From a virus, in IMG/VR virus record IMGVR_UViG_3300023110_000121, positions 1-31,550 of that record: 31,550 nucleotides of DNA; one strand, 5' to 3'. Positions within the stretch are counted from its first letter, which is position 1; every line of letters begins with the position of its first letter. The notes below the pieces were generated by a model. It made no database searches. It had not been told where the DNA came from and saw nothing but the letters and a program-made list of their open reading frames with translations. Made by a program: the position numbers and the translations under genes. Below, piece after piece: positions 1 through 29,881 of the stretch.

Positions 1-2901
1 ACTTTCCCAAGGTGCAGCAACTAGAGCATAATTACCATCACCACTTATATCTAAATCATATCCAAATCTATCGTTAGTTGCTGCATCAGATGCTGTTAAC
101 TTTTGTTGTTGTGAACTACTTGCCCAGTTTGCAATTCCTTCATCAGAATCTGCTACAACATCACCTTGACCAGAAATTGATATTTTTGTAAATGATGGAA
201 CAGGTGTAACTTGTCTTGCTCGTACATAGTCTGAATCAATGAGCGCGATTGTTGTTGCAGAATCGTTTCCACCACCACTTGAAGTCTGTCTTGCTTGAAC
301 ATAAGCTGAATCAATTAAAGCAATTGCTGCAGAAGAATCCAGATCTGATTTTGCATTAATTAACCCAACAAGCGTTGAATAAGCAGAATCATCATCATTC
401 AATGCTGCAGCAATTTCATTAAGTGTATCTAATGTTCCAGGTGCTCCATCAATTAAATTATTAATTTGTGCTGTTACAAAAGCAGAATCGGCAAAGTCCG
501 CATTTGTGTATGTAGTCTGTCTTGCCTGTACATAAGAAGAATCTACAAGTGCAGTTACTCCGGCAGAATCCAAGCCTGAACTACTTGCCGCAATAGTAAC
601 TGTGTCGGTTGTAGCATTAGTTGTGATAGTTATGTTTGAACCAGCTTCTAGTGTGAGTCTATCGCTGAGAGATGCTCCTGTTGCTGCAGTGTATACATAT
701 ACAGCACCAGCTGTTGATGACTGTTCATGAGCACCAACAGCTAAATAAGCTGCATCTTTTGTAACTGCAACAGATTGATTTTTACTTGCAAATCTGTTAT
801 TTTGACTTGAAGTTGTATCACTGCTAGTTACTGTTGATTCGAGAGCCCATGTGCCTCCAGTGTTTTTCCAAATTTGAACTTCACCTTCAGTTGTAGTAGC
901 TGCATCTTGTCTTGAAACACCTATGTAAACTCGAGTTCCATCTCCACTTAAATTTAATGCATGTCCAAAGAAATCACCAGCAGCTTGAGTTGCAGAATAT
1001 AACCTTTGTTGTTGACTCCAAGTTGAACCTGATCTTGTAAAGATATAAACATTTCCTGCTTTAGTTTCTGAACTTTCTCCATCTGCTCCTGGATCTGATA
1101 CTGCAGCAACAGTACCATCTGCATTTATACTAACTGCATAACCGTATGAATCATTTTGTGATGAAGCTGAATTGCTTGGTGTAAGTTCTGATTCGCGTGC
1201 CCATCCGCCGCTGTTGACCCAAACCCAAGCCGATTTATCAGTATAAGCTCCAAAAATAATTCTGTCTTTATCTTCAGAAGCTAATTCGTTACTCCATCCT
1301 ATCTTAGCATCAGTAGGAAAATCACTAGTGCTTTCTTCAATAGTTTCTGCTCTTGTCCAAGTAGAACCAGATCTAGTGAAAATTTCTACAGTACCCATTC
1401 TTCTAGTAGTGCCATTAGCAGATCTTCCCTCTTGATGACCTACTGTTATCATATTTCCGTCTTCTGATATATCTACAGAAATACCAAAATAACCTCCAGA
1501 AGAAGACACACTAGTATCAGGTGATAAAGTAGCTTGAAGCGACCATGTAGTACTAGATCTCGTATAAACATAAACTCTTCCATTAGTATTAGAATTTCTC
1601 GCTGCAACTGCGGCTGTATCACCATCAGCGTCTATGGCTACAGCCCATCCGTAGTTTAAATACGCTACAACATCAGCACCTGGTGGATCTAATCTTTGTT
1701 GTACTGACCAAGTACTTCCATTATAATAATGAATAAACGCTCTACCAGCTTGTGTAGCACCCGGGCCAGTATTATAGTGAGCGCCAGCTACAACATAAAG
1801 ACCGTCGTCAGAAATATCTGTACTCCAACCCATGTGTTGGGCAGACACACTATCATTAGGTTCTAAATCTCCAGTTTCAGTAGAAGTAGACCAATTCGCT
1901 CCACCTTCGCTATTATCGGCTACGAGATCATCTTGACCGCTAACTGATACAATAGTGAAAGCTGAAACAGGATCAACTTGTCTTGCTTGTACATAATCAG
2001 AATCAATTAAAGCAATCGTGGCTGCTGAATCATTTCCACCACCACCTGAAGTCTGTCTTGCTTGTACATATGAAGAATCTATAAGAGCAATTGCTGCAGA
2101 AGAATCCAGATCTGATTTTGCATTAATTAAACCGACAAGGGTTGAATAAGCAGAATCATCGTCGTTTAACGCAGCTGCAATTTCGTTAAGGGTGTTTAAT
2201 GTACCAGGCGCGCCGTCAATCAAGCTATTAATTTCAGATGTTACAAACGCTGAATCAGCAAAGTCTGCATTTGTATACTTAATTTGTCTTGCTTGAACAT
2301 AAGAAGAATCGATAAGAGCTGTTGTTGTTGCAGAATCTAATCCGCCTCCACCACCTGATGTTTGTCTAGCTTGTACGTATGAACTATCGACAGTAGCTTC
2401 AATTCTAGCATCTGCTCGAGCATTTGTAAAATATAAGTTAGAACCTTCTGATATGTTATCAGTGGTTCTAGTTGCTAATCTAACATCAAAATCAGAATCA
2501 GATCTTGTAGTTGTATAATATAAATTATTTCCTTCTGCTAGGTCAGAGGTTGTATTAGCAGCTAGAGAAATATTAATTACTGTATCAGAAGAATCTGTTG
2601 CTTTAAATGTTCCACCATCATTACGAAGTATTAAGTTATCACCCAAATAAATCGAATTACCACTTAAGTATAAATCTCTAAATTTTTTGGAACTATCACC
2701 TAAGTCATAGGTACTATCGGTTGCTGGAACTATATGACCTGTTACACTTCCTAGTGCTTCTGTAACAATGTCCTTTCCACCGGCGGATGTGCCGTCGCCT
2801 ATGAATAATTTGTTTGTATCAGTTACAAATACCGGTTCACCCGCTAAAGGTGTAATGGTACCTCTATCTGAATCTAATCCTCGTCTAAATTGTAATGCCA
2901 T
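1..2901 (-). CDS. Giant tail fibre/adhesin with Mtd-like N-terminus and FG-GAP beta-propeller (C-terminus beyond window)
   Basis: The frame is open from an ATG at 2901 to the left edge, giving 967 residues with no stop, so the 3' end is missing. AGAGGA about 12 bases upstream serves as ribosome binding site. Residues 1-45 (MALQFRRG, then GEPVFVTDTNKLFIGDG) resemble the N-terminal domain of phage major tropism determinant (Mtd) and many fibre proteins. Residues about 57-88 form the fibre block 'P.TDSTYDLG..SKKFRDLYLSG'. Residues 115-165 hold two 'EG.NLYYT/FT' motifs. Seven copies of the DSAYVQARQ-type motif are present. Residues about 350-735 contain seven repeats of the type FG.sVdIs.DG...vvGA (near 355, 416, 471, 533, 585, 644 and 703), with VYVYTRS...W strands between them, as in FG-GAP_2 beta-propellers. 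After a duplicated linker a further repeat (FGYDLDISGDGNYALV) starts near residue 944. Probable role: receptor-binding fibre. The propeller call is from pattern recognition, not a database search. Confidence 0.85.
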   Translation of the reverse strand, partial: MALQFRRGLDSDRGTITPLAGEPVFVTDTNKLFIGDGTSAGGKDIVTEALGSVTGHIVPATDSTYDLGDSSKKFRDLYLSGNSIYLGDNLILRNDGGTFKATDSSDTVINISLAANTTSDLAEGNNLYYTTTRSDSDFDVRLATRTTDNISEGSNLYFTNARADARIEATVDSSYVQARQTSGGGGGLDSATTTALIDSSYVQARQIKYTNADFADSAFVTSEINSLIDGAPGTLNTLNEIAAALNDDDSAYSTLVGLINAKSDLDSSAAIALIDSSYVQARQTSGGGGNDSAATIALIDSDYVQARQVDPVSAFTIVSVSGQDDLVADNSEGGANWSTSTETGDLEPNDSVSAQHMGWSTDISDDGLYVVAGAHYNTGPGATQAGRAFIHYYNGSTWSVQQRLDPPGADVVAYLNYGWAVAIDADGDTAAVAARNSNTNGRVYVYTRSSTTWSLQATLSPDTSVSSSGGYFGISVDISEDGNMITVGHQEGRSANGTTRRMGTVEIFTRSGSTWTRAETIEESTSDFPTDAKIGWSNELASEDKDRIIFGAYTDKSAWVWVNSGGWARESELTPSNSASSQNDSYGYAVSINADGTVAAVSDPGADGESSETKAGNVYIFTRSGSTWSQQQRLYSATQAAGDFFGHALNLSGDGTRVYIGVSRQDAATTTEGEVQIWKNTGGTWALESTVTSSDTTSSQNNRFASKNQSVAVTKDAAYLAVGAHEQSSTAGAVYVYTAATGASLSDRLTLEAGSNITITTNATTDTVTIAASSSGLDSAGVTALVDSSYVQARQTTYTNADFADSAFVTAQINNLIDGAPGTLDTLNEIAAALNDDDSAYSTLVGLINAKSDLDSSAAIALIDSAYVQARQTSSGGGNDSATTIALIDSDYVRARQVTPVPSFTKISISGQGDVVADSDEGIANWASSSQQQKLTASDAATNDRFGYDLDISGDGNYALVAAPWES
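296..560 (-). repeat. Fibre linker module, copy A (duplicated at 2054-2316)
   Basis: Encodes DSSYVQARQ, then DFADSAFVTAQINNLIDGAP, a TLNEIAAALNDDDSAY segment and a second DSAYVQAR. A second copy lies upstream in the same gene and a diverged third in the 800-residue fibre (3968-4205). A 44-base stretch (320-363) is identical to 2087-2130. It probably forms a helical/coiled trimer segment between globular domains. Confidence 0.85.
680..1890 (-). repeat. Seven-repeat FG-GAP-like beta-propeller region inside the fibre gene
   Basis: Seven protein repeats spaced 52-62 residues apart share an aromatic-Gly start, a D/N-x-D-G or similar acidic loop and a hydrophobic strand ending near Gly-Ala. Examples are YGWAVAIDADGDTAAV, FGISVDISEDGNMITVG and FGHALNLSGDGTRVYIG. 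Intervening strands read VYVYTRSSTTW, VEIFTRSGSTW and VYIFTRSGSTW. Integrin-type propellers have seven blades with calcium-binding acidic loops; the count here matches. Repeats 4 and 7 have degenerate acidic loops. Confidence 0.75.
2054..2316 (-). repeat. Fibre linker module, copy B (duplicate of 296-560)
   Basis: Same module as 296-560, placed before the first propeller; copy A follows that propeller and precedes the next one. The DNA is near-identical in places (2087-2130 equals 320-363 exactly) and diverged elsewhere mainly at third codon positions, pointing to an internal duplication of linker plus following domain. Confidence 0.85.
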
Positions 2902-2923
2902 ATTATTCTATTATCCTCTAACC

Positions 2924-2931
2924 TATTTATA
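2924..2931 (-). promoter_or_regulatory. T4-type late promoter for the propeller fibre gene
   Basis: On the minus strand this reads TATAAATA followed by G, a full match to the T4 late promoter core recognised by gp55-directed RNA polymerase. It overlaps the stop region of the upstream 800-residue fibre gene and ends 23 bases before the ATG at 2901, leaving a short leader containing the AGAGGA ribosome binding site. Confidence 0.8.
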
Positions 2932-5329
2932 TTGTTCCATAATTAGATTTCAAACTTGCAGGAGATGTTAGTGTTCCATAGTTAACATTTATAGATGTTA
3001 AAAGCAATTCAACAATAGTAGTTGCATCAATGCCTCCATAATCTGCTCCTAATGTACTATTTATATATGCTTGATTAGCTGTATTGTTAATCAACTCAAT
3101 TCCAGTAGATGAATCTAATGTACTTGTTACAGTAATTGTTTTTGTGCTTCCTAGTCCGGACGCTGTTATAGCTGATCCAACAAAATTTAATGTGGATCCT
3201 GAAGTTTGAAGTGAATTACCTTCATCTTGTACAGTAACCCCTGTTTGTCTTTCTTGTACATATGCAGAATCAATTAAATTAGTAGCGCTAGTAGAATCAA
3301 ATGTACTATAATTAAATGCTGCTAATTCAGTCTCTGATACAAATGATTGTAATCTAGCTTCTAAAAATGCTGAGTCAACAATATCAGAAACACCAGCAGA
3401 ATCAACAGTTGCAACCACACCTATAACATTTACAACACCTGCACTGTCAAGTTCACCAATACTAATTGTTCGTGTTGCTGAATCTGCAGATAAAGCAAGA
3501 TTATCAATAAAGACCGTGCCGCCTGATAAATGTATATCTTTGAATTTTTTATCTGAAGTACCAAGGCTGAATGAACTATCAGTAGATGGTATAATATTAC
3601 CAGATACTATTAATGTGTTGTCACTTTCTCTAAGAGTATTAAACTTAGATTGTACATGACTACTATCTATTAAAGCAAGAGTTGCAGCAGAATCTACCCC
3701 AGATGGACTAGTTGTTTGTCTCGCTTGTACATATGCCGAATCTATTAACGATATTGCTTCATTCGAATCTAATCCGCTTCCATCACTTGAAATTTGTCTT
3801 GCTTGTACGTAAGCCGAATCAATTAAGGCAATGGTAGCAGCAGAATCAACACCGGTTGGATTGTTTATTTGTCTTGCTTGTATGTAAGCCGAGTCAACCT
3901 GAAAAGATATTGATGAATCTATCATCGCTTGCGTGGCTGACGAATCAGTACCTGCCACTGTTCTTGCTTGCACATAAGCAGAATCAATTAAAGCAATTGC
4001 ATCTGTAGAATCCAAATCTGATTTTGCGTTTATAAGTCCAATTAAAGTATTGTAAGCAGAATCATCATCATTTAATGCAGCCGCTATTTCATTAAGAGTA
4101 TCTAACGTGCCAGGTGCACCATCAATAAGATTGTTAATTTGTGTTGTAACAAAGGCAGAATCAGCAAAGTCTGCATTTGTATATTTTATTTGACGATTTT
4201 GTATATATGAAGAACCTACTATATTAGTAACGAAAGCTGAATCTCTTTGAAGATCAACCTGCCTTGCTTGTACATAAGCCGAATCTACAATGTCAACAAC
4301 GGCATTTGAATCAGTTATAGTTGTAGTTGTTTGTCTAGCTTGAACATATGCTGAATCAACTTGACTCACTATTCTTGCTTCGGTATAGTATTGATTACTA
4401 CCTTCAGTTAAATCTGAAGTTGTAAATCCAGTTAAGTTACGTGTACCAATTACAAGAGCATGCCCCATATACCCATGAGCTGAACACTGATAATGTAATA
4501 CTGGTGGTGTAGATTCTGTTATTTCAATTTCAGCGTATGTAGATGTAGTTGTTACATTAGTGGTATATTGTGTATTTCTTGCTGCGTCATAATAGAATCT
4601 AAATGGGTGACTAGACATATCACTTGAACTAAGAGTAAAACGATATGTTCTTCCTATTTGTAGTTGTACTATTGGAGATTGAGTTCCATCAATAACATAA
4701 CCGCTTCCGCTACCCGAACCATTGTAAACATGATCAGCTGTTTTTGAAGCAACTGTTACAGAAAAGTTTTTAGTAGTTGCATCATGTTTATTTCTTTCAA
4801 CTGCCGTATTTGCAGAATCTTTTGCTAATATATAATCACTATCAAAATTATCTGCAGTGTATACTGATTCTACATCAAAACTAAATTGACCAGTATTAGA
4901 ATCATATGTTAAATCACCACCTGCAGAAAAGTGTGATCTTACTTCAGACGCACTTGGACCAGTATACGTTAGTACACCAGTTGTTGAATTATAAGTTAAT
5001 GATCCATCACCACCAGTATCAGTAACACTTATTGCATTTTTAGCGTCACTGTCAGCGCGTGCTGAAGTGTAATAAAGATTGGTGCCTTCTGTAATATTTG
5101 ATGTGCTACCAACTCTGGCTTCAATATATGCGGAATCGATAATGGAAAAGGTTGCAGTGGAATCAACACCTATTGCTCGAGCATTGATGCTGCCAATTTG
5201 ATTACTAGAATTTTTGAAATATAATATACCATCTGCATAGTTAATGGCTAATTCGCCATAATCAAGATCATTTGTAGCTGGTATACGTCCAGCAATACTG
5301 GACTTTTTTAGCTTAATGCTAGTAGACAT
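2927..5329 (-). CDS. Tail fibre protein with a cupredoxin-like domain (800 aa)
   Basis: The ATG at 5329 has AAGGAA five bases or so upstream. Residues 1-50 (IKLKKSS, IPATNDLDYGELAINYADG) are the conserved N-terminal attachment-type segment of T4-like marine phage fibres. Residues 77-150 ([20 protein letters not shown] onward) are homologous to a segment of the neighbouring 892-residue fibre. Residues about 187-296 look like a cupredoxin fold: SHPFRF (His241), then YAEIEIT and YQCSAHGYMGHALVI (Cys282, His285, Met288). About eleven DSAYVQARQ-type motifs follow, between residues 65 and 720, plus the DGAPGTLDTLNEIAAALNDD linker near 410-440. Near 610-640 sits an 'IPSTDSSFSLG...KFKDIHLSGGT' block shared with other fibres here. 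Likely a trimeric fibre or adhesin; whether the cupredoxin domain binds copper is unknown. Confidence 0.85.
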   Translation of the reverse strand: MSTSIKLKKSSIAGRIPATNDLDYGELAINYADGILYFKNSSNQIGSINARAIGVDSTATFSIIDSAYIEARVGSTSNITEGTNLYYTSARADSDAKNAISVTDTGGDGSLTYNSTTGVLTYTGPSASEVRSHFSAGGDLTYDSNTGQFSFDVESVYTADNFDSDYILAKDSANTAVERNKHDATTKNFSVTVASKTADHVYNGSGSGSGYVIDGTQSPIVQLQIGRTYRFTLSSSDMSSHPFRFYYDAARNTQYTTNVTTTSTYAEIEITESTPPVLHYQCSAHGYMGHALVIGTRNLTGFTTSDLTEGSNQYYTEARIVSQVDSAYVQARQTTTTITDSNAVVDIVDSAYVQARQVDLQRDSAFVTNIVGSSYIQNRQIKYTNADFADSAFVTTQINNLIDGAPGTLDTLNEIAAALNDDDSAYNTLIGLINAKSDLDSTDAIALIDSAYVQARTVAGTDSSATQAMIDSSISFQVDSAYIQARQINNPTGVDSAATIALIDSAYVQARQISSDGSGLDSNEAISLIDSAYVQARQTTSPSGVDSAATLALIDSSHVQSKFNTLRESDNTLIVSGNIIPSTDSSFSLGTSDKKFKDIHLSGGTVFIDNLALSADSATRTISIGELDSAGVVNVIGVVATVDSAGVSDIVDSAFLEARLQSFVSETELAAFNYSTFDSTSATNLIDSAYVQERQTGVTVQDEGNSLQTSGSTLNFVGSAITASGLGSTKTITVTSTLDSSTGIELINNTANQAYINSTLGADYGGIDATTIVELLLTSINVNYGTLTSPASLKSNYGTI
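3058..3065 (-). promoter_or_regulatory. Possible intragenic late promoter
   Basis: An exact TATAAATA followed by G on the minus strand, inside the last part of the 800-residue fibre gene and about 155 bases upstream of the next start codon. It also encodes YINS in frame, so it may be chance; the better-placed copy at 2924-2931 makes it redundant. Confidence 0.3.
3968..4205 (-). repeat. Fibre linker module, diverged third copy
   Basis: Encodes the same ordered elements as 296-560 and 2054-2316: DSAFVTTQINNLIDGAPGTL, TLNEIAAALNDDDSAY, LINAKSDLDS and a DSAYVQAR motif. DNA identity is visible but lower than between the other two copies. Confidence 0.8.
4442..4771 (-). other. Cupredoxin-like domain within the 800-aa fibre
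   Basis: Residues 187-296 contain the ligand pattern of a type 1 copper site: His241 in SSHPFRF and Cys282/His285/Met288 in CSAHGYMG, on strands VQLQIGRTYRFTL, YAEIEIT and HALVIG. Plastocyanin uses C-x2-H-x4-M; here it is C-x2-H-x2-M, so the Met may not be placed identically. Domains ending 'C..H..M.G' are known in phage and bacterial surface proteins. Confidence 0.65.
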
Positions 5330-5358
5330 TCCGATTCCTTAAAAAAGGTTTTGTTTTA

Positions 5359-5384
5359 AGTCAAGAGTTAAAAAACTCTTGACT
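5359..5384 (-). terminator. Perfect 11-bp hairpin between two fibre genes
   Basis: An inverted repeat AGTCAAGAGTT with a four-base loop lies between the end of the 892-residue gene (5390) and the start of the 800-residue gene (5329). It is not followed by a clean U-run on either strand, so a factor-independent terminator is uncertain. It could instead stabilise or delimit mRNA ends. It directly abuts and partly overlaps the late promoter at 5384-5391. Confidence 0.45.
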
Positions 5385-5391
5385 ATTTATT
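5384..5391 (-). promoter_or_regulatory. Near-consensus late promoter for the 800-aa fibre gene
   Basis: Minus-strand AATAAATA followed by G, one mismatch from the T4 late core TATAAATA, 54 bases upstream of the ATG at 5329. It overlaps the stop codon of the preceding gene, in the same arrangement as 2924-2931 and 27082-27089. Confidence 0.55.
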
Positions 5392-8068
5392 AATAAGTTC
5401 CACCGTCAAGGGTTGTAACTGTTACCGCTCCTGCTGTTACTGTAAATTGGTCTGAATCAAATGATGCCACACCCTTTGTAGTTACAGTGGCATTTCTACC
5501 AGTTACTACAAGATTACCACTTGCAATAGTTGTTTGAATACCTTGGTCAAAATCACCATAGATATTAAAAGATTCACCGATAGTTGCAGCAATTCCTGTT
5601 CCTTGGCCATTTACATCATCACCACTATAAAGAGTAATATCATTTGCTGAAATTGCGCCAGAAGCATCTGAGAAGTGTGTTGAATTAAATGTTGCAACAC
5701 CTTTTGTTGATCCATCAGCAACTGCATTAGCAGCAGTAATTGTTACTGTTGTGCCGGTTGCACTTGTTGAAATACCTTGTGCACTGGCACCAGTGATTGT
5801 AAGTGTTTCGCCAAGAGTAGCGGCCGCGCTACCAGATCCGCCAGCAAGAGTAATGTCGTTTGTAGAAACTGCACCAGATGATACCGTAAAGTTTGTTGAA
5901 CTGAATGATGCGACACCTTTATTAGATGTTGTAGCATCTTCAGCAGCAACTGTAATAATACCAGCGCCTTCAGTGATATCAATACCTTCACCTGCTGTAA
6001 GTATTTGTCCTAAATCTGAATCAACTCTTGCAGTTGTATAGTAAAGATTTGTTCCTTCACTAAGATCACTCGTTGAATGATTTGATATATCACTTACTGT
6101 ACCAGTTATATTACCTGATACGTTACCGGTAAGAGTACCGACTCTTAAATCAGCGTATGTAAACCCTGTTCCACTGATATCAACTACGTTTGTAGCACTA
6201 TCAAGTGTTCCACTATCGTTATATAAACCTGTGAAAAGTTTATATTGACCATCTGACGCATCTCTAAAAAGACCTGTGCGTTCTATACGTGTTTGTGCAG
6301 TATCATAATACTTACCAATAAAACCAATATCTAATGCATCAGCTGTAGTATTTGAATCTGCTAAATTAAATAAAGGATCGTTAGTTGTTACTGTAGCTGA
6401 GTTAATTGTGGTTGTTGTGCCATGAACTGTAAGGTCACCATCAATAATAGCGTTTCCATCAACTTGAAGATCATTAAATGTAACGTCTGAAGTAGTTGCA
6501 ACCGCTTGACCTATAGCAACTTCGCCGTTTGTTATTGTTACGCCAGTTCCGCCTGAAAAGTGAGCTCTTGTTTCGGCTGCACTTGGACCGGTGATTGAAA
6601 TAACACCAGTTGATGCTGTATATGATGCTGCGCCATCACCACCAGTAAATGTTAAAGATATAGCATTCTTTGCATCACTATCTGCTCGAGCAGTAGTGTA
6701 ATAAAGATTTGTAGAACCTTCAGTAATATCATCGGTATCAATTGAACCGCTACCACCAAGAGATATTGCTGTTCCATTAATTGTTATTGAAGAATTTGCA
6801 AGTTCTGAATTGCTGATCTCGCCTGTTGCAAGTGTTACAGTTTTACCAGAAAGATCAAGAGTACCTGCTAATTCATCAGCATTAACACCACCATTTTTAA
6901 TAGTAACTGCACCAGAACTAACTGAAAAGTTATCGCTACTAAATGATGCGATACCTTTATTACTTGTTGTAGCGTCTTCACCTGCGATAGTAACAGTTCC
7001 ACCAGATTGCGTAGCGTCAATTCCTTCGCCTGAAGTAAATGTTAATGTTCCACCAAGAGAGATGTCTGATGATGTTGATCCGTCAGTAACTGAAATTGTG
7101 CTATTAGCTAATTTACTATTTGCAATTGATCCTTCTAACTGTGTGTTTGAAACACCACCCGTTGCAATTGTTACAGCGCCGGATGTTACAGTAAAATCCG
7201 CAGAAGCAAATGATGCAACACCTTTATTAGTATCTGTAGCTTCTTCAGCTTCAATTGTAACTACATTATTAGTTACTGCTGTGTTAATACCTTCTCCACC
7301 AGTGAACGTAAGATCAGAATCTAGGAGGTTAACTGTATCTGTTCCTGTGTCACCTGCTACTGAAAGAGTAGTTGAGATGTTAACGTTAGCGGCAGCTGTT
7401 AAACGTCCTTGAGCATCAACAGTAAAAGTTGGTATTTGGGAAACTGAACCATATGAACCAGCAGTAACTGCAGTATTGTCTAAAGTGATAGTAAGCGCAT
7501 TATCAGCAGTTCTTGTGGTACTAATAGGCGCACCACCTAATATTGATAAAGTATCAGTATCTAGGTCAATAGTATCTGTTCCGGCAGAATCAGTTGTAAA
7601 TGTGAGTGTTGTAGCACCTGCAACACCATCAACATATTCTTTTGTAGCAAGAGAGTTAGTACCAAATCCAGATCGATCTTTATAGCCTGCTGGAACATTT
7701 ACTACTCCTGTGCCATTAGGCGAGATAGTAAGAGAACCATTGGAGTTAGTAGTCGATATCGTATTACCGTCTATAGTAACGTTATCAACATTTAATACAT
7801 CAATTTTACTTGATGCATCAACTATGATTGCACTTGATGCTGTGAGTGTTCCAGGTGTATGATCTAATTTGTCGGTAAAATAGACACCACCGACGACTTC
7901 GATTTCATTGGCATTACCTGCCGAATCTACGCCACCAGTACCGATATATAATCGATCACCGCCGTTTCCTTCCGTGCCTGCGAGATAGGAGTACGCTAAT
8001 TCACCTAGTTTTAAACTACTAGGAGCACCTCCGGTTCCCGATCTTTTGATCTTAATTATTGCTGCCAT
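5390..8068 (-). CDS. Long repetitive tail fibre protein (892 aa)
   Basis: The ATG at 8068 shares its A with the TAA of the 102-residue gene (TAATG), implying translational coupling. The N-terminus ([20 protein letters not shown], then GELAYSY) is the usual fibre-type start, followed by ATKEYVDG near 141-148. Five repeats of the type 'ATTSNKG(V/I)ASFSS..F.V.SGAV' occur near residues 280, 370, 716, 788 and 864. Residues 527-645 contain the widespread fibre block with [25 protein letters not shown] and [14 protein letters not shown]. Two 'EG.(T)[11 protein letters not shown]' motifs lie near 450 and 671. The C-terminus ends LDGGTY, echoing DGGFY at the end of the 102-residue protein. Likely an elongated trimeric beta-rich fibre. 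No chaperone or peptidase domain was recognised. Confidence 0.85.
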
Positions 8069-12830: not shown

Positions 12831-13574
12831 TTACATCCAATACTTTTTTATCCATGAATCTTTATAATTTTCTATCATATTATTTGAGTTTGAAAAATGT
12901 ATCATTTTAATTGAATCTGAAAATTCATTGTCTATATAATATGGATCTTCATTATTAATTTCATTATGCCAATTACTTTGTATTTTTCTATATTCATCAG
13001 GCGAGTATTTTGCAAACCATTTCATTGGAAACCAATGCCTATTATTATCAATATGCATATCAATAAAATTTTGTTCTCCATTAACTGGACCTTCAGCTTG
13101 TCCGTTATTAATAAAATATTCCTGCCAATAGTCTGGCTTTTCTGTAAATATATCGTATAAATGCTGAGTATCTCCCATATTATACATTTGAAATCCACCG
13201 TTAATTTTACAAAAATTTCTTCTATTAGACCACCATCTTTCGAAACAACCAAATTGTTTCATAGATAATTTATGATTGAGGATATCATTCATATCATTAA
13301 TAATAATCCAATCAATATCTAAAATCAAACATGTTTCACCATTTTCAATATTTCCAAATCCGCTATTATGAAATTCTAATTTATGCCACTGTAACTTATA
13401 TTTTTCTACATCAACAATAGGAACAATAATTATATTTTCATTTAAATTTTTATCATCATCAGTGTAACAATAAAAATTAAAATCAATTGTACTATTCGCT
13501 TTCAATCCTTCATATAAATTATTTACATATCGATAGTTATACTTAGTTCCAACTTTTAAAGTTAGTATGTTCAT
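12831..13574 (-). CDS. Probable GT-A-type glycosyltransferase (247 aa)
   Basis: Residues 82-90 contain CLILDIDWI, a D-x-D motif (Asp86/Asp88) after a hydrophobic strand, as in metal-dependent nucleotide-sugar transferases. FYCYTDD near 34-40 and NGGFQMYN near 125-132 fit GT8-like or related folds. The N-terminal 60 residues closely parallel those of the plus-strand gene at 14816-15565 (shared FYCYTDD, N..L and NII), so the two are paralogues. The start overlaps the end of the PP-loop gene by four bases (ATGA). DNA is more AT-rich than the flanking structural genes. Acceptor and sugar cannot be told from sequence. Confidence 0.75.
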   Translation of the reverse strand: MNILTLKVGTKYNYRYVNNLYEGLKANSTIDFNFYCYTDDDKNLNENIIIVPIVDVEKYKLQWHKLEFHNSGFGNIENGETCLILDIDWIIINDMNDILNHKLSMKQFGCFERWWSNRRNFCKINGGFQMYNMGDTQHLYDIFTEKPDYWQEYFINNGQAEGPVNGEQNFIDMHIDNNRHWFPMKWFAKYSPDEYRKIQSNWHNEINNEDPYYIDNEFSDSIKMIHFSNSNNMIENYKDSWIKKYWM

Positions 13575-14239
13575 AAGGATTCACCGTCATAATGTCCAAA
13601 TGCCCAATATTTTTCATGGCACCACCAACAACTTTTACACGGTCCATTTGGTTCATCACCAATACAAGATACAGTATGTTGAAATATTTCTTTTAAACCT
13701 TTTTCTTCATACATGAGTCTCACCCATCTTTTATCATAAGAGCTTATTATATTAGAGTCTTCATACTTAATACCTTTATCATTTTTTTCACCTACATTAC
13801 GATTAGAGCTTCCGGGATCTTTGTATTTAAATGATTGATCTTGTGGTGATAGAGTACTTCCTGAAAATACCATATCATTGTCACACATACCTTCTTTCCT
13901 TAAAAGCGCGTACACAGGACGATGATATTTAGGTTTGTCTTCTCCAGCAAGCTTATTGTATGCAAATAAATAGAGATCGTTTATTTTTACAGTAGGGAAT
14001 TTATTTTTTATATATGAATATACTTTTTTAGCCGCATCGGGCGAATAAGCGTTCACTCTTCTCATATCCCAACCGTGAACAGGTGTTATTTGAAATTCTT
14101 GTATATTGTTTTCAATTACATATTCGCATATTAAATAAAAAACTAAAGTTGAATCTGTACCGCCTGATAAGTTTAATACTGCGTTTTTATAATTAAGCTC
14201 GATTAATCTTTTATGTAAATATTTTTCGTATTCTTCCAT
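13571..14239 (-). CDS. QueC-like PP-loop ATPase family protein (222 aa)
   Basis: The ATG at 14239 is chosen over the in-frame GTG one codon earlier because AAAGG lies upstream and its A is shared with the TGA of the preceding gene. Residues 22-31 (LNLSGGTDST) are the PP-loop that binds ATP pyrophosphate. The C-terminus carries Cys192, Cys201, Cys204 and Cys207 in a C-x8-C-x2-C-x2-C pattern (GPCKSCWWC), the spacing of the zinc site in QueC, 7-cyano-7-deazaguanine synthase, and the length also matches. The middle of the protein does not obviously match QueC, and no queD, queE or folE partner is in the window. A sugar amidotransferase-type or other PP-loop enzyme therefore remains possible given the glycosyltransferase neighbours. 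Confidence 0.75.
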   Translation of the reverse strand: MEEYEKYLHKRLIELNYKNAVLNLSGGTDSTLVFYLICEYVIENNIQEFQITPVHGWDMRRVNAYSPDAAKKVYSYIKNKFPTVKINDLYLFAYNKLAGEDKPKYHRPVYALLRKEGMCDNDMVFSGSTLSPQDQSFKYKDPGSSNRNVGEKNDKGIKYEDSNIISSYDKRWVRLMYEEKGLKEIFQHTVSCIGDEPNGPCKSCWWCHEKYWAFGHYDGESL

Positions 14240-14805
14240 CACACCTTTCCTATTATCATATATCTTGTATATTTTTCGAAATTAAGTTCTCCACTATAAT
14301 ATTCATCAATTACACCATATTGCTCTGCTAATTCATCACAGCTATCAACACAATTAACGTGATCTTTAATTTCTCTATAGTTATTACTTTGAAGAACAAC
14401 TGTTGTTCCTTTCTCTATCTTAAGAGGTTTCATATGTTCGCAAGACGTATTTATCACCATACCATCATATAAAAAATTATTACAGTTTATCTCGTCGACT
14501 TTAACTTTTTCTATGTCATTAAAAAATATATTCCTAGCTATATTTACAACCTCAGCATCTATGTCATGCAACAGTATTCTTTGCACTTTTGGATATATCT
14601 TTAAAAGTCTTGGAACTATAATATTACCAAACCAACTACCAGCAACATAAATTTTTTCTGGTAAAATGTTAATCTTCTCTAATTCAGCTGCTAACCAAGA
14701 TTTACATTTTATTTGCTTTTCATCGTAAGACTGAACTATATCTTTTGCTAAATGAGGATGTTTTTTAATAGCTCTTTGTGTTTTAGTGTCTATAAAAAAG
14801 TGCAT
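14239..14805 (-). CDS. SAM-dependent methyltransferase-fold protein (188 aa)
   Basis: Residues 51-62 (KIYVAGSWFGNI) followed by an acidic strand end (ILLHDIDAEVVNIA, 77-90) form a class I Rossmann methyltransferase pattern, though motif I is not the usual GxGxG. INTSCEHM at 118-125 occupies the motif IV position and is a signature of a small methyltransferase-like family in marine phages. The start has AGAGG about five bases upstream. It is transcribed divergently from the glycosyltransferase at 14816 with only ten bases between them, and its end is coupled to the PP-loop gene by TGATG. The substrate is unknown; the lack of a canonical glycine motif leaves catalysis unproven. Confidence 0.65.
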   Translation of the reverse strand: MHFFIDTKTQRAIKKHPHLAKDIVQSYDEKQIKCKSWLAAELEKINILPEKIYVAGSWFGNIIVPRLLKIYPKVQRILLHDIDAEVVNIARNIFFNDIEKVKVDEINCNNFLYDGMVINTSCEHMKPLKIEKGTTVVLQSNNYREIKDHVNCVDSCDELAEQYGVIDEYYSGELNFEKYTRYMIIGKV

Positions 14806-24707: not shown

Positions 24708-26111
24708 TTACAGTGATATTACAACTTTAATGTCTTCTTGTTGATTTGCTGCTCTTGTGACCGGTGCTCTGTTTTCTATATATAAAATGCTTCCAGAAAG
24801 TTTATCTACATCATCTCTAGTGAAAGCATCGCTGTCAGCATCTACACCTTCAGCTACAAGTGTTCCTGATGTACCACCACCAGTTATTGCTTCACCTTCA
24901 GCGAATGGTTTAAATCCAGTATCTTCTGTTTGATGAAAATATAATCTATCGCTATCAACTTCATCAACTAAAGCTTTAGCTCCTGATGTTCCACCTGTTA
25001 TTGTTGCATCTAAAAACCCCGTATTAGCAGCTGCAGTAAGCTTTAAGAATCTTAAAACTTTACCGCTTGATGTAGTAAAAGGAGGACCATCATTTGCACT
25101 ATCTGAAGTATGTCTTGGATCTCTTATCAAAGCTACTTGTCTGAAATCTTGACCTACTATAAAATTACTATCTTCTATTCCATTTGGTTTTGCATTAAAC
25201 ATTAATGAATTAGACTTGAGATCATCTCTTGCATCTGCACCTAATCCAGCTTGAGGACCTAATATTGGTCTTGCTTTTGCACCGCTTCCTCCACCGCCGT
25301 TTATTGCGACACTAGCAAACCTATATCCTTGTCCCATAGTTATAGCACTGTCAGCGCTTGAATCAAGTTCAATTTTTGTAACAGCTCCGCCTGAAACTGT
25401 AGCAGTAGCTGCAGCTCTTACACCATCGCCATTGATAGTTATTGTTGGAGCAGAAGTATATCCACTTCCACCATCAGTGACTTTAATATTTACTATTTGT
25501 CCAGGAACTGCAGAATCTTGAACCTCAGCTTGTTGAATTTCAAGTACAGATAAAGTAGTTGTGCCAGTAAATTCATTGACTCTTGCAGAGTCTAGAATTT
25601 TTTCAACTGGTAAAAAGTTTGCTGATAAAAAAGCACTTGCTCTTCCAGCCGATAAAGAATATAAAAACTTCCAAACGTATCCATCAGAAGTTTTAAAAGG
25701 TTTTGTGCTAGTTCCGGTTGGCTTTATCGTAGAAGTTGTTGCAGTGCCTGCATCATTCTTAGCTTGTCTTAAAACAATATAAACTTGGTTATCTTCTGTC
25801 ATAACTGCATAAGGATTTGTGTCTGGTATACCAGTAAAATTATCGTCATAAGCCTGATATATAGACCCAGATGACCAGTTATATCTCGGTATGACATATG
25901 ATACATCACTTGCAGATTTTATTGATTGCAAACCTGCTCTTAAATTTCTAACAGTTCTAGTACTATTTGTAGGAGTGGGCACTGTTTCTGAGCTGTCCCA
26001 AGGTTCTGACCTTCCAATTCCTATATAGTACCTATTAGTATTGTTCGTAACTTCATCAAAGATATTTTGAGTTAGTAGTTTTTTAAACGGGTCTGTAATT
26101 ATTGCTGACAT
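24708..26111 (-). CDS. 8: Baseplate wedge protein gp8, enlarged (467 aa)
   Basis: The N-terminus NRYYIGIGRSEPWDSSETVP (residues 26-45), YNWSSGSIYQAYDD (77-90), YAVMTEDNQVY and SDGYVWKFLYSL (142-153) are the conserved landmarks of T4 gp8, a wedge component that binds gp6/gp7/gp10 in the baseplate. T4 gp8 is 334 residues; here the C-terminal half contains an inserted Gly-rich beta unit (DGGSGYTSAPTITINGDG, residues 213-230, and NGGGGSGAKARPILGP, 271-286) and a second TGGTSGAKALV/TGGGTSGTLVA pair. The start has AAGGAAT upstream. It is co-transcribed with the 313-residue gene ten bases before it. Confidence 0.9.
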   Translation of the reverse strand: MSAIITDPFKKLLTQNIFDEVTNNTNRYYIGIGRSEPWDSSETVPTPTNSTRTVRNLRAGLQSIKSASDVSYVIPRYNWSSGSIYQAYDDNFTGIPDTNPYAVMTEDNQVYIVLRQAKNDAGTATTSTIKPTGTSTKPFKTSDGYVWKFLYSLSAGRASAFLSANFLPVEKILDSARVNEFTGTTTLSVLEIQQAEVQDSAVPGQIVNIKVTDGGSGYTSAPTITINGDGVRAAATATVSGGAVTKIELDSSADSAITMGQGYRFASVAINGGGGSGAKARPILGPQAGLGADARDDLKSNSLMFNAKPNGIEDSNFIVGQDFRQVALIRDPRHTSDSANDGPPFTTSSGKVLRFLKLTAAANTGFLDATITGGTSGAKALVDEVDSDRLYFHQTEDTGFKPFAEGEAITGGGTSGTLVAEGVDADSDAFTRDDVDKLSGSILYIENRAPVTRAANQQEDIKVVISL

Positions 26112-26121
26112 ATTCTATTCC

Positions 26122-27063
26122 TTATGATACCGTTACTTCGCCTTGATTTCCTATTAAGAACCAGTTTGATCCGTCCCATATACAAGTACAACCATCATTT
26201 TGCGCTAATGCAAAATCTGTACCTTGTGCAAAATTAGAAGGTGTTACTGTCATAGCGCCTGCACCTTTATTTGTAAAAATCTTATACTCACCTACAGTAG
26301 TTCCATCTGCTAAACTAACCGCCAAAGCAGAGCCTTTGTTACCTATGATTAATGTAGCCGAAGTGCTTGCAGCACCATCTGCTGTTATAGTAGAAGAAGT
26401 AAAAGCTGCTTTATTTAATTCAATAGAACCAGTTCCTTTTGGTGTTAATATTATATTTAAATTAGTTGCTGTTCCTGTTGCTGAAAGAGTTGGTCCTGTA
26501 GTTGAAGCACCGTTTGCTATTGTTAGTTCATTGACAGCGCTACTAGTAGTTGTAAATTTTATAAATTCGTTTCCATTGGCATCATTTAAAGACGTACCGA
26601 TAACAGGTGTATTAATAGTTGGCGATGTCAAAGTTTTATTGGTTAGTGTTTGTGTTGCTGCTATTGTTGTGATAGTACCAGCTCCACTTGGTATAGTAAT
26701 CGTTCCACCGTTTGTAATTGATGCTATAGTTGGAGTTGTTAATGTCTTATTAGTTAATGTTTGAGTTGCAGTATCCAATACAACATTGCCACCAGCATCT
26801 GGTAAAGTGATAGTTCTATCTGCTGTAGGGTCAGTAGCGATTAATTTAGTTTCATGTGAATCTGTACTAGATCCTTCAAATATAATGGTGCCTTCGTTAT
26901 CAGAATCTTTTATTATAACTCTTGTACTTAGCGTTGAACTATCGCCTCCAAGTTGTGTATACAATTCTTGAAAGTTTTGATTAATTTTTGTACCAGCTGT
27001 GCGTAAGGTATCTCCTGTACCGTCGTTTGCTGATGAACCTACATTTATATTTTGTCTTGTCAT
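26122..27063 (-). CDS. Fibre/whisker-like virion protein (313 aa)
   Basis: The ATG at 27063 has AGGAT six bases upstream and a late promoter at 27082-27089. The N-terminus NINVGSSANDGTGDTLRTAG then KINQNFQELYTQLGG is widespread in T4-like phage structural proteins. Three or so 'TQTLTNKTLTSPTI' units (residues about 97-153) are typical of fibre shafts. The C-terminus includes DGCTCIWDGSNWFLIGNQG, a fibre-end type motif (WDGS.W). Probably a short fibre or collar/baseplate appendage; the exact T4 counterpart is not recognised. Confidence 0.8.
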   Translation of the reverse strand: MTRQNINVGSSANDGTGDTLRTAGTKINQNFQELYTQLGGDSSTLSTRVIIKDSDNEGTIIFEGSSTDSHETKLIATDPTADRTITLPDAGGNVVLDTATQTLTNKTLTTPTIASITNGGTITIPSGAGTITTIAATQTLTNKTLTSPTINTPVIGTSLNDANGNEFIKFTTTSSAVNELTIANGASTTGPTLSATGTATNLNIILTPKGTGSIELNKAAFTSSTITADGAASTSATLIIGNKGSALAVSLADGTTVGEYKIFTNKGAGAMTVTPSNFAQGTDFALAQNDGCTCIWDGSNWFLIGNQGEVTVS

Positions 27064-27089: not shown

Positions 27090-28052
27090 CTAGAAAGATG
27101 AGTCAGTTACTCTTCTAGTAAATATTTCGTTATCCATTGTTTCTAATACCATTGAGAAGTCTGGTGTTGCATTTTCATCACTGTCTCTAATTGAGCTATC
27201 ATCAAAAGTAAATGAGTTTGGTGTTATTATTTGACGTAATGTGTGATAAGTTGTATCGAGTTGTGATAGAGTAATGTCTTCGTACTCTTCTACTAATTCG
27301 TTTAAATTAGATCTGACGTTACCACCGCCAGAGTCTATCAACACTGTTGTCTGAACAAAAGGAAATGAAAATGCTGCAGTTACTTCAGAAACAAGTGTTG
27401 GTCCAGGTGATGAATCTTCGAGTGCTAAAGGCGCCGTGATATTAAGAGAACCTACTGTGTCAGAAACTACTTGACCTTTATAATAAAATCCTGCAGGATG
27501 AACAAACTTTTTATACAGCTCTGACCATTTAGTTATATCAATTCCAGTTTTCACTAATAAACCAAATGTTTGAAAAAGTTCATTATCTTGTAGATATTTT
27601 AATGAGTCAACACCTATTTGACTTGCTGAATCTCCAATGTTAAATATTGATTCTTTGCCATATTCAACATCAGCCACTTGCTGAAAGAATAATCTAAAAA
27701 ATTCTTGAAATCCAAATTTAGTACCTTTGTTTCTTGCTAACTCAGCTAATCTTGTTATTGCGTATCTTGTATCAGTAAAATTTTCACCTGTTTCTAATCC
27801 ACCAGCAATTTCACTTACCATATTATTTAGCAAATCGCTTTGCATTTCTCTTGCATCTTTTTTAGAAAAAAGTTGTCTTATATCATCACCAAAGGCGTGT
27901 GTTCCATTGTCTGAATCTAAAAAGTCATAATACTTTTCTAAAAAAGTTACGAGAGTCGGATACTCACTTGTATAATATTCAGGTAAAGCTTCACGCACTT
28001 TTCGTACTTGAAAGTTTTTGAGCCTTCTTTTACTGTGATGATTAATAGACAT
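27090..28052 (-). CDS. Baseplate-associated virion protein following gp6 (320 aa)
   Basis: The ATG at 28052 shares its A with the TAA of gene 6. The N-terminus is basic (HHSKRRLKNFQVRKVREALP), then EYYTSEYPTLVTFLEKYYDF, a segment conserved in structural proteins located after gp6 in marine T4-like phages. Residues 105-130 (LAELARNKGTKFGFQEFFRL) and KKFVHPAGFYYKGQVV near 184-199 are further landmarks. T4 has the 1032-residue gp7 at this place; this protein is far smaller and not clearly related. A wedge role is inferred from position only. Confidence 0.8.
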   Translation of the reverse strand: MSINHHSKRRLKNFQVRKVREALPEYYTSEYPTLVTFLEKYYDFLDSDNGTHAFGDDIRQLFSKKDAREMQSDLLNNMVSEIAGGLETGENFTDTRYAITRLAELARNKGTKFGFQEFFRLFFQQVADVEYGKESIFNIGDSASQIGVDSLKYLQDNELFQTFGLLVKTGIDITKWSELYKKFVHPAGFYYKGQVVSDTVGSLNITAPLALEDSSPGPTLVSEVTAAFSFPFVQTTVLIDSGGGNVRSNLNELVEEYEDITLSQLDTTYHTLRQIITPNSFTFDDSSIRDSDENATPDFSMVLETMDNEIFTRRVTDSSF

Positions 28053-29881
28053 TAAATGCTAACCTGTGTATTTTGAAAATCAAGTAAAGCTCTAGATGTT
28101 GAAGTCGATGTGTCAATACCGAGAACATAGTTACGTAATGGTCTTATAGTATTTTGATTTGCTGGTGTAACTGTTATAGATATGAAACTTCCATCTATTG
28201 AACTTGGTTTAAATCCGACTAAACTTACAACACCTGTTTCTTGATTGTATGTTCCTACATTATCATTTTCAACAGTTCCATCTATTGAAACAATTTGTAT
28301 TTTTGCGCTGTTTAATTTATTTTGTAAAAAACATTGTTGACTATTAAAAGTAAATCCTGATGAACTTAAAACCGGTAAATCCGCAGCAGGAAGCGCAAGC
28401 TTCGCGGGATAATTTATATCGTAACTAAGAGAAATATTATTGGTTGGTACAAAGGTTTGAACCATCTTAACATCTATCTTAGAGTTTAAAATTGCAGGAT
28501 CCAATGCGTCTATAATGGTAAGTAAATTTGATCTTCTAAAAACTTCATTAAATCTTTCCAAATTGGTTGAAAAGAAAGTATTTATTCTTGTTTGTACTAA
28601 ATTTTCCATTGATTGCGCAGTAGCACTTGTTAAATCCGGATCTAAATTAAAAGTAGTTGTAAGTTGTAAGTTTGTTGTTATAGGATCAACAAACTCTGTT
28701 GTAATTGACATTACTGACATATTGTCAGTTAAATCAGTTTTTATTTGATCTTTTACGCTTTGTTGTGTGCTGTCAGTTATTCCAGATTTAAATTTTAAGC
28801 CAACATAAACACGGCCATAAACTGCTGGAACGTTATCAGCGCCGCCAAAGGATGTCACATCATCTAAATATGCATTAAAATTTGATAATATTTGTCCTTT
28901 ATAGTCTTCAGCTGTAACTAATCTTCTTTGCGAAGTAAAGGCTATAGGAGCATTTTGTCTTATAGATTCTATACTTTCTTTAAATGCACCACCAGCAGCA
29001 TTTGATTCTGTCACCGTTGTTATATTATAAGCTACTGAATTAACGGTTATTGTTGAAGATGGAGTAAATGTACTAGAGGTGTTCGCTGCAGCACCTTGAG
29101 TTGATAAGTAATCAACTATTATTTTATTACCAGCAACTGGTGCTTTTCCAGTAGTAGTACCATCACCAAATATTAATTCATAATACCCATTAGGAACTTC
29201 TTTAATTTGATAATACGTTGAGTCACTTTCTATTCTTACTGCTTTCTTAATATCGGTGTAAGTATCAAATGTAGTAGATGATGCAGTAGGAAAGACACGA
29301 ACTCTGATGGTTGTAGTATCAATTGTGATATCAGGTATGACATATATTTGTGTATCTGATGTGTCACCTACAAAAAATGTTTTTGTTTTTTCTGTTCCTT
29401 CAAAAACTGGTATTCCAGTTCCATTCGTGCTATTTAAAAATTGGTAAACGCCAGATCCATTATCATTTGCAGTGAAAGCTTCTCTAGTTTGAAATGTATA
29501 TGATGTTCCATCAACATCAGTTGTGAACTGTGTATTTCGCGGCAACACTATTGCATTAGGTCTTGGTGTTGTAGTAATGTTTATTGATAAATTTAAAGAA
29601 GCCTCAGGTGATACATAAGATCTTGGAACGTAACCAAGATTTTCTGCAAGTGCGGCAACAGAACTTCTTAATTGTGCTGTGTTTATAAAAGATTCATTTA
29701 ATGCAAAGTTAGCATTTAAACCTGTAAAATGCGTGTTGTAAGCTAACACATCTAATATATTACTTAGTCCTGATGCTTCAAAGTCATAATCAGCAAATTC
29801 TGTTTGTTGCTTTAAATAATCTTTTAACTTACTTTTTATAGTATCAAAGTCGAGTTGAGTTGATTTAATTGTTGTTGCCAT
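28052..29881 (-). CDS. 6: Baseplate wedge protein gp6 (609 aa)
   Basis: The N-terminus (LDFDTIKSKLKDYLKQQTEF, FEASGLSNILDVLAYNTHF, NESFINTAQLRSSVAALAEN) is the hallmark of T4 gp6/baseplate J-like wedge proteins, which dimerise to form the continuous ring of the baseplate. AENLGYVPRSYVSPEA and RRLVTAEDYKGQILSNF near 330 also fit. Length is close to T4 gp6 (660). The start overlaps the end of gene 25 by one base (TAATG) with AAGG upstream, so gp25 and gp6, which form adjacent wedge parts, are translated together. Confidence 0.93.
   Translation of the reverse strand: MATTIKSTQLDFDTIKSKLKDYLKQQTEFADYDFEASGLSNILDVLAYNTHFTGLNANFALNESFINTAQLRSSVAALAENLGYVPRSYVSPEASLNLSINITTTPRPNAIVLPRNTQFTTDVDGTSYTFQTREAFTANDNGSGVYQFLNSTNGTGIPVFEGTEKTKTFFVGDTSDTQIYVIPDITIDTTTIRVRVFPTASSTTFDTYTDIKKAVRIESDSTYYQIKEVPNGYYELIFGDGTTTGKAPVAGNKIIVDYLSTQGAAANTSSTFTPSSTITVNSVAYNITTVTESNAAGGAFKESIESIRQNAPIAFTSQRRLVTAEDYKGQILSNFNAYLDDVTSFGGADNVPAVYGRVYVGLKFKSGITDSTQQSVKDQIKTDLTDNMSVMSITTEFVDPITTNLQLTTTFNLDPDLTSATAQSMENLVQTRINTFFSTNLERFNEVFRRSNLLTIIDALDPAILNSKIDVKMVQTFVPTNNISLSYDINYPAKLALPAADLPVLSSSGFTFNSQQCFLQNKLNSAKIQIVSIDGTVENDNVGTYNQETGVVSLVGFKPSSIDGSFISITVTPANQNTIRPLRNYVLGIDTSTSTSRALLDFQNTQVSI

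Follow-up and report, generated by a model that had tools for sequence, protein, structure and literature searches.

A probable cupredoxin module with a predicted copper site in the tail fibre of a T4-like marine phage

As one tail-fibre protein of a marine phage carries a histidine in an SHPF context followed by a Cys-His-Met cluster in CSAHGYMG, we were interested whether the surrounding domain is a genuine cupredoxin and what such a domain might do on a phage tail. The window analysed here is the whole 31,550-base virus record. The fibre ORF (2927-5329, minus strand) encodes 800 aa and matches the tail fiber profile phrog_30742 at E 3.2e-40 over residues 180-297, i.e. through the cupredoxin-like domain, and it lies among fibre and baseplate genes. 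The domain itself, supported by the AlphaFold2 model, matches to solved structures and profile matches, was taken as residues 187-297 (4439-4771, minus strand, close to the 4442-4771 first assigned) and gives E 5.7e-43 with phrog_30742 and E 6.7e-8 with phrog_677, a baseplate wedge tail fiber protein connector. The full His-Cys-His-Met set named in the preliminary description was confirmed by the computed positions, all on the minus strand: His241, predicted metal ligand 1, at 4607-4609, Cys282, ligand 2, at 4484-4486, His285, ligand 3, at 4475-4477 and Met288, the predicted axial ligand, at 4466-4468. Cys282 is the only cysteine of the fibre, the domain is present in a single copy in the window, and the pattern CX2HX2M occurs there once (stop-to-stop frames of at least 50 aa). 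The same fibre also contains a DSAYVQAR-type unit in imperfect repeats (3242-5190, minus strand).

The surroundings of the fibre ORF are the tail genes of a T4-like marine phage, with baseplate wedge subunits at 28052-29881 (gp6 in S-PM2) and 24708-26111, an ORF at 26122-27063 that partly matches connector as well as fibre profiles, and several further fibre ORFs. The nearest relatives of the window gp6 are those of Phage C48C1 (42.8% identity) and then Methylophilales phage Melnitz-3 (36.6%). The ORF adjoining the fibre (1-2901, minus strand), which is truncated by the window boundary, begins with an Mtd_N domain and contains seven FG-GAP_2 stretches, and glycosyltransferase-like (phrog_1962) and weakly QueC-like (phrog_1550) ORFs lie between the tail genes at 12831-14242 (minus strand).

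AlphaFold2 modelling of residues 183-300 from an alignment of 47 domains (A1) led to a model with a pLDDT of 93.9, a pTM of 0.86 and nine strand segments. His241 (His59 of the model) stands just ahead of strand 61-64, Cys282 (Cys100) closes strand 95-100, the next-to-last one, and His285 and Met288 (His103 and Met106) lie in the loop preceding the last strand, 108-113. A histidine before a strand, a cysteine ending the next-to-last strand and a His/Met pair in the following loop are the arrangement of cupredoxins; all four residues are thus predicted to be placed as in that fold, in agreement with the preliminary description. At the level of strands and loops, the model gives no sign of a lacking Greek-key barrel or of separated ligand residues, either of which was to speak against a cupredoxin. 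The best VIA-align matches were 2dv6, 6tfo and 6tfd, tied at Z 8.8-9.4 and all belonging to the three-domain copper nitrite reductase of Hyphomicrobium denitrificans (rmsd 3.0 over 97 aligned residues for 2dv6), and the titles of all 50 matches listed name copper nitrite reductase, laccase or rusticyanin, with many of the two-domain laccases being near-duplicates. Together, the strand segments and these best matches suggest the Greek-key beta-sandwich of the cupredoxin superfamily. Foldseek against the PDB gave no match at E <=0.001, its best being rusticyanin at E 1.7e-3 and TM 0.47. Some immunoglobulin domains also appear in the Foldseek list; a purely Ig-like reading was rejected, as these are few and the sequence profiles indicate copper proteins. 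At the level of the fold only, the model also resembles the 'Beta-sandwich protein' of Pithovirus LCPAC and Marseillevirus LCMAC genomes (BFVD A0A481Z6J5, A0A481Z7Q7 and A0A481YY19; TM 0.67-0.84 by query length, E 1.8e-9 to 1.7e-6).

Pfam gave no family for the window domain at E <=1, and weak matches scattered over eight families for its 47 relatives. Cu-oxidase was touched by three of the 47 (E 0.0011), and as many touched SpaA_3 (E 0.00056) or CBM_4_9. PF25489 (At5g54830-like; cut-off 27 bits) was weakly matched by eight of 47 (best E 0.0024), with no match for the window domain and 20.3 bits for a copy in P-SSM5. In a PDB profile search with A1, all three matches at E <=1 were copper proteins (E 0.0027, 0.0084 and 0.15), and the pseudoazurin match lines up Cys, His and Met. 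A wider profile built from 16 diverse phage domains (A5) gave ten matches, nine of them copper proteins, and hhalign of A5 against 13 cellular Copper-bind proteins gave 96.3% (E 1.9e-9). When a phage-like Prochlorococcus protein was removed as a control, A5 still reached 94.5% (E 8.3e-8), and the His, Cys, His and Met columns stayed aligned. The same comparison gave 58.7% for A1, the window subfamily, and 6.6% (E 0.0055) after the removal, with the Cys-His-Met columns still aligned. Profile comparison, of the kind proposed in the preliminary description as a check, supports the cupredoxin assignment for the diverse phage profile, whereas the direct signal between the window subfamily alone and cellular proteins appears weak. 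Likewise, an unfiltered HMM of the distant phage branch recovered 14 ORF entries at E <=0.05 from 619 ORFs of cellular loci, of which 13 are the Copper-bind ORFs as judged by ORF length (some of them present in a pair of overlapping loci) and the remaining entry, L359, is probably another, while the A1 HMM recovered two at that threshold: besides the Prochlorococcus protein, an ORF other than the Copper-bind one at its locus.

Judged by sequence, the homology link to cellular cupredoxins therefore runs via the distant phage branch and the wider phage profile, and it can be followed stepwise. The window domain is 49.6% identical to that in the fibre of Melnitz, and Melnitz leads to a distant copy in locus L179 (34.5%, E 7e-5), this to a hypothetical protein of P-SSM5 (38.5%, E 2e-10), this to the C-terminal domain of an S-CAM4 protein (48%), and this to a secreted-looking Prochlorococcus protein (46.5% over 98%). 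The last one passes the PF00127 Copper-bind cut-off of 21.2 bits with 33.8 bits; phage relatives stay below it with 20.8 and 19.7 bits, and the window domain has no match. In L179, two adjacent ORFs (631-2238 and 2252-5716) carry one copy each, one from each family branch. The S-CAM4 protein (L362, 788-2836), a phage protein annotated as hypothetical, ends in the same kind of domain, and its relatives are annotated subtilisin-like or Peptidase S8. The Prochlorococcus protein is a 134-aa Copper-bind protein from a single-cell genome (L334, 1351-1755). Among 41 genomes of its family, a close copy was found only in its own genome, and 12 others have weak ones (33-38% identity); because of this confinement, acquisition of the domain from the host was not adopted as an explanation. 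The relationship to bona fide cupredoxins appears to be carried by the diverse phage profile and the stepwise identities, and from the model, the profile matches to copper proteins and this identity chain, the domain is very probably a cupredoxin homologue.

To sample relatives irrespective of the ligands, IMG/VR was searched with the N-terminal half only (A2; patterns without the ligand motif), and the best 80 of 483 loci were taken, i.e. the closest relatives and not a random sample. They yielded 71 distinct domains, two of which are incomplete and were left out of the four-ligand count; His241, Cys282, His285 and Met288 are all kept in the 69 complete ones (69/69). His241 alone is kept in 71/71, and a further histidine, His200 (4730-4732, minus strand), in 70/70 sequences with a letter at that column. 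Only 16 of 115 columns are invariant (gaps ignored), including the four ligands and His200, with the median column being 74% conserved. A chance motif was rejected, as relatives collected without reference to the four residues keep them without exception, and no second CX2HX2M pattern was found in the window. In the predicted model and the alignments, the ligands occupy the canonical places of a type 1 copper site.

Similar domains are widespread in marine phages. Using tblastn, the window domain found 17 of 50,697 phage records and a distant copy found 356 (E 0.01). In an even sample of 45 of these 356, the match lay in a gene named baseplate wedge tail fiber connector in 30 cases and in 'gp9' in one. 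Overall, the domain occurs in fibres, gp9/gp10-like connectors, gp7 and other virion proteins, and tail-fibre carriers include the Pelagibacter phages Mosig and Baldr, Methylophilales phage Melnitz and the Prochlorococcus phages P-TIM68 and P-SSM2. The laboratory isolates Syn9 and P-SSM4 likewise carry the domain. A search with A5 gave one to five matches in each of ten out of ten phage records, some of them pieces of one split copy. In IMG/VR, 163 of 169 candidate stretches and, in a second search, at least 557 of 600 were positive, both counts coming from searches that included the ligand motifs. The fibre-embedded context, originally regarded as unusual, is hence a recurrent one in the tail proteins of many marine phages. 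No match was found among 72,556 plasmid records at E 0.01, and six loci with the domain were found on contigs assigned to genomes, some or all of which may be phage contigs. Two contigs, from Planctomycetaceae (L082) and Euryarchaeota (L083) assemblies, carry a phage-type domain and may be misplaced phage contigs.

From the homology via profiles and intermediates, the predicted fold, the invariance of the ligands, the joint loss of three of them in a sister clade (see below) and the spread among tail proteins, we infer that the domain probably binds a metal, that this metal is probably copper, that it would be in place in the virion, and what the domain might touch. On balance, we are inclined to regard the domain as a copper-site cupredoxin module that provides the tail with an exposed contact surface locked by the metal. 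Such a module, related by descent to plastocyanin- and azurin-like proteins, would be carried as a module in the tail fibre of a T4-like marine phage and would bind one copper ion via His241, Cys282, His285 and the axial Met288. The metal would lock the loops at one pole of the beta-sandwich, having a structural role by stiffening the pole that faces the partner, and this pole, by topology also including His200, would contact a component of the host envelope or a neighbouring tail protein. An electron-transfer role would not be needed. His200 lies in the loop between the first two strands of the AlphaFold2 model and is without counterpart in the alignment of the distant phage branch. By cupredoxin topology, this loop presumably belongs to the copper pole, and His200 may be a fifth ligand, a second-shell residue or a shield of the site in the window subfamily.

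Phage proteins acquire their fold in the cytoplasm, where free copper is almost absent; this counts against the copper reading, as does the existence of a whole clade without ligands. The bound ion might instead be zinc or another soft metal with a purely structural role, acquired in this copper-poor cytoplasm at assembly, and the invariant His200, by topology at the same pole, could provide a zinc-friendly His3-Cys set. An axial methionine is of little use to zinc; Met288 is invariant nevertheless, and the CX2HX2M spacing is that of pseudoazurin, a copper pattern, so that this alternative seems rather unlikely.

The domain could also be redox-active, either exchanging electrons at the host surface or mimicking a periplasmic copper protein of the host and docking on its partner. 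This would fit the 46.5% identity between the secreted-looking Prochlorococcus cupredoxin and a phage relative as well as the cyanobacterial names of most carriers in the phage collection (by the first word of the name, 264 of the 356 are Synechococcus, 55 cyanophage, 25 Prochlorococcus and 12 other). However, Pelagibacter and Methylophilales are also among the hosts of the carriers, and the Prochlorococcus protein has its close copy in one of the 41 genomes only, next to 12 weak ones. In searches not aimed at such a centre, no second redox centre came to light in the fibre. A redox function seems distinctly unlikely.

A wider census bears on the question whether a metal is bound at all. It covered 333 loci, without the cellular Copper-bind loci and L364, and gave 239 distinct segments passing E 1e-5, six of which were dropped for a gap at a ligand column. 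Among the 233 with letters at all four columns, 183 have H-C-H-M, 49 have F-[A/S]-[V/T/I]-M, one has H-C-N-M and none has two ligands. As distinct segments may be boundary variants of one domain, contained ones were merged, leaving 230, and the 225 complete ones among them comprise 181 with H-C-H-M, 43 ligandless and one with a single loss. The sole single-loss copy, with His285 replaced by Asn, is found in locus L117 (ORF from 1988, residues 499-598). Another weak stretch without the motif, in gp7 of P-HM1 (L253, 381-459), lies outside the E 1e-3 table and hence outside the census. Both cases speak against a strictly all-or-none site.

The ligandless domains are of the S-B43 tail-fibre type and form a sister clade in which His, Cys and His are jointly replaced by F, by A or S, and by V, T or I. 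In a set gathered with a query from this clade, and representing one related group, the ligands are absent from 44 of 46 distinct rows; of the other two, one is incomplete and one (L329) retains H-C-H-M. Their model has a similar fold at lower confidence (pLDDT 76.4), with a best VIA-align Z of 7.5, in the middling range of this tool. Copper proteins by title account for its 20 best matches and for 40 of the 50 rows overall, while the remaining ten include dystroglycan, factor VIII and a phage neck. Since three ligands were lost together while the fold was kept, the ligands act as one site that is dispensable for folding, and the partner of the ligandless fibres may have changed. As the clade possibly reflects a single event, it counts as one observation and not as 44. 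Folding without metal, as indicated by the similar predicted fold of this clade, would be compatible with no metal in the window copy either, the four residues being kept for packing or a hydrogen-bond network, or the cysteine for an interchain disulfide. We give this explanation little credence, as the joint loss of His, Cys and His, with a single loss in one of 233, is the signature of one site, albeit possibly from a single event. The suggestion that the domain might be a structural relic was likewise rejected for the window copy, because its site shows no variation in this subfamily and, where relatives lack it, has disappeared as a unit.

Copper in a buried type 1 site is bound firmly rather than presented to the outside. 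With this firm binding and with no HxH pair in the fibre, whose nine histidines all lie at least five residues apart, it is very improbable that the fibre offers copper as bait to a copper-uptake receptor of the host in the style of a Ferrojan horse, although a metal in marine phage tails has already been proposed for iron at HxH motifs (PMC11705849).

If copper is indeed bound, the virions of common T4-like marine phages might each contain several centres of the blue-copper type, in fibres, connectors and baseplate, and infection might depend on copper, which we put forward only tentatively and would sooner doubt than expect. Ocean phages would then use copper as a cofactor for structure and adhesion, and part of the marine colloidal copper would be phage-bound. 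With the site loaded, the host-contacting part of common ocean viruses would include copper proteins, something stated in none of the annotations examined. The assignment also carries the idea of iron in phage tails over to a second metal, makes a copper dependence of adsorption testable and provides a domain name for records now labelled 'tail fiber', 'connector' or 'hypothetical protein'. No description of a cupredoxin in a phage tail was found in the open-access literature as judged from titles and the beginnings of abstracts, and the passages mentioning 'copper' that were examined in cyanophage papers all concern microscopy grids; as far as searched, the domain is undescribed in phage tails.

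Among known systems, the plastocyanin/azurin family (PF00127), and pseudoazurin in particular, is most similar in predicted fold, in the set and order of ligands and in the CX2HX2M spacing. The window domain differs in being a module of a large fibre, in its loop with the invariant His200 and in falling below any Pfam threshold; unlike the plastocyanin-type soluble carriers, which are small free proteins, it is located inside an 800-aa fibre. The N-terminal part of the copper nitrite reductase of Hyphomicrobium denitrificans is the best structural match, but shares 13-16% identity and is part of an enzyme. Rusticyanin, which provides the top Foldseek matches, has Cys138, His143 and Met148 among its ligands, and the end of its VIA-align alignment (model residue 113 with residue 155) would align Met288 with Met148, provided that no gap occurs in the final stretch; its ligand loop is longer, however, and it is a free protein. 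The profiles phrog_30742 and phrog_677 match the domain, and their descriptions give its place in the tail only, with no cupredoxin named. Iron-binding HxH sites of tail fibres, of the T4 gp37 type and in Alteromonas phage R22Y (PMC11705849), are alike in placing a metal site in a phage tail, whereas the site predicted for the fibre described here is a lone His-Cys-His-Met set within a globular domain.
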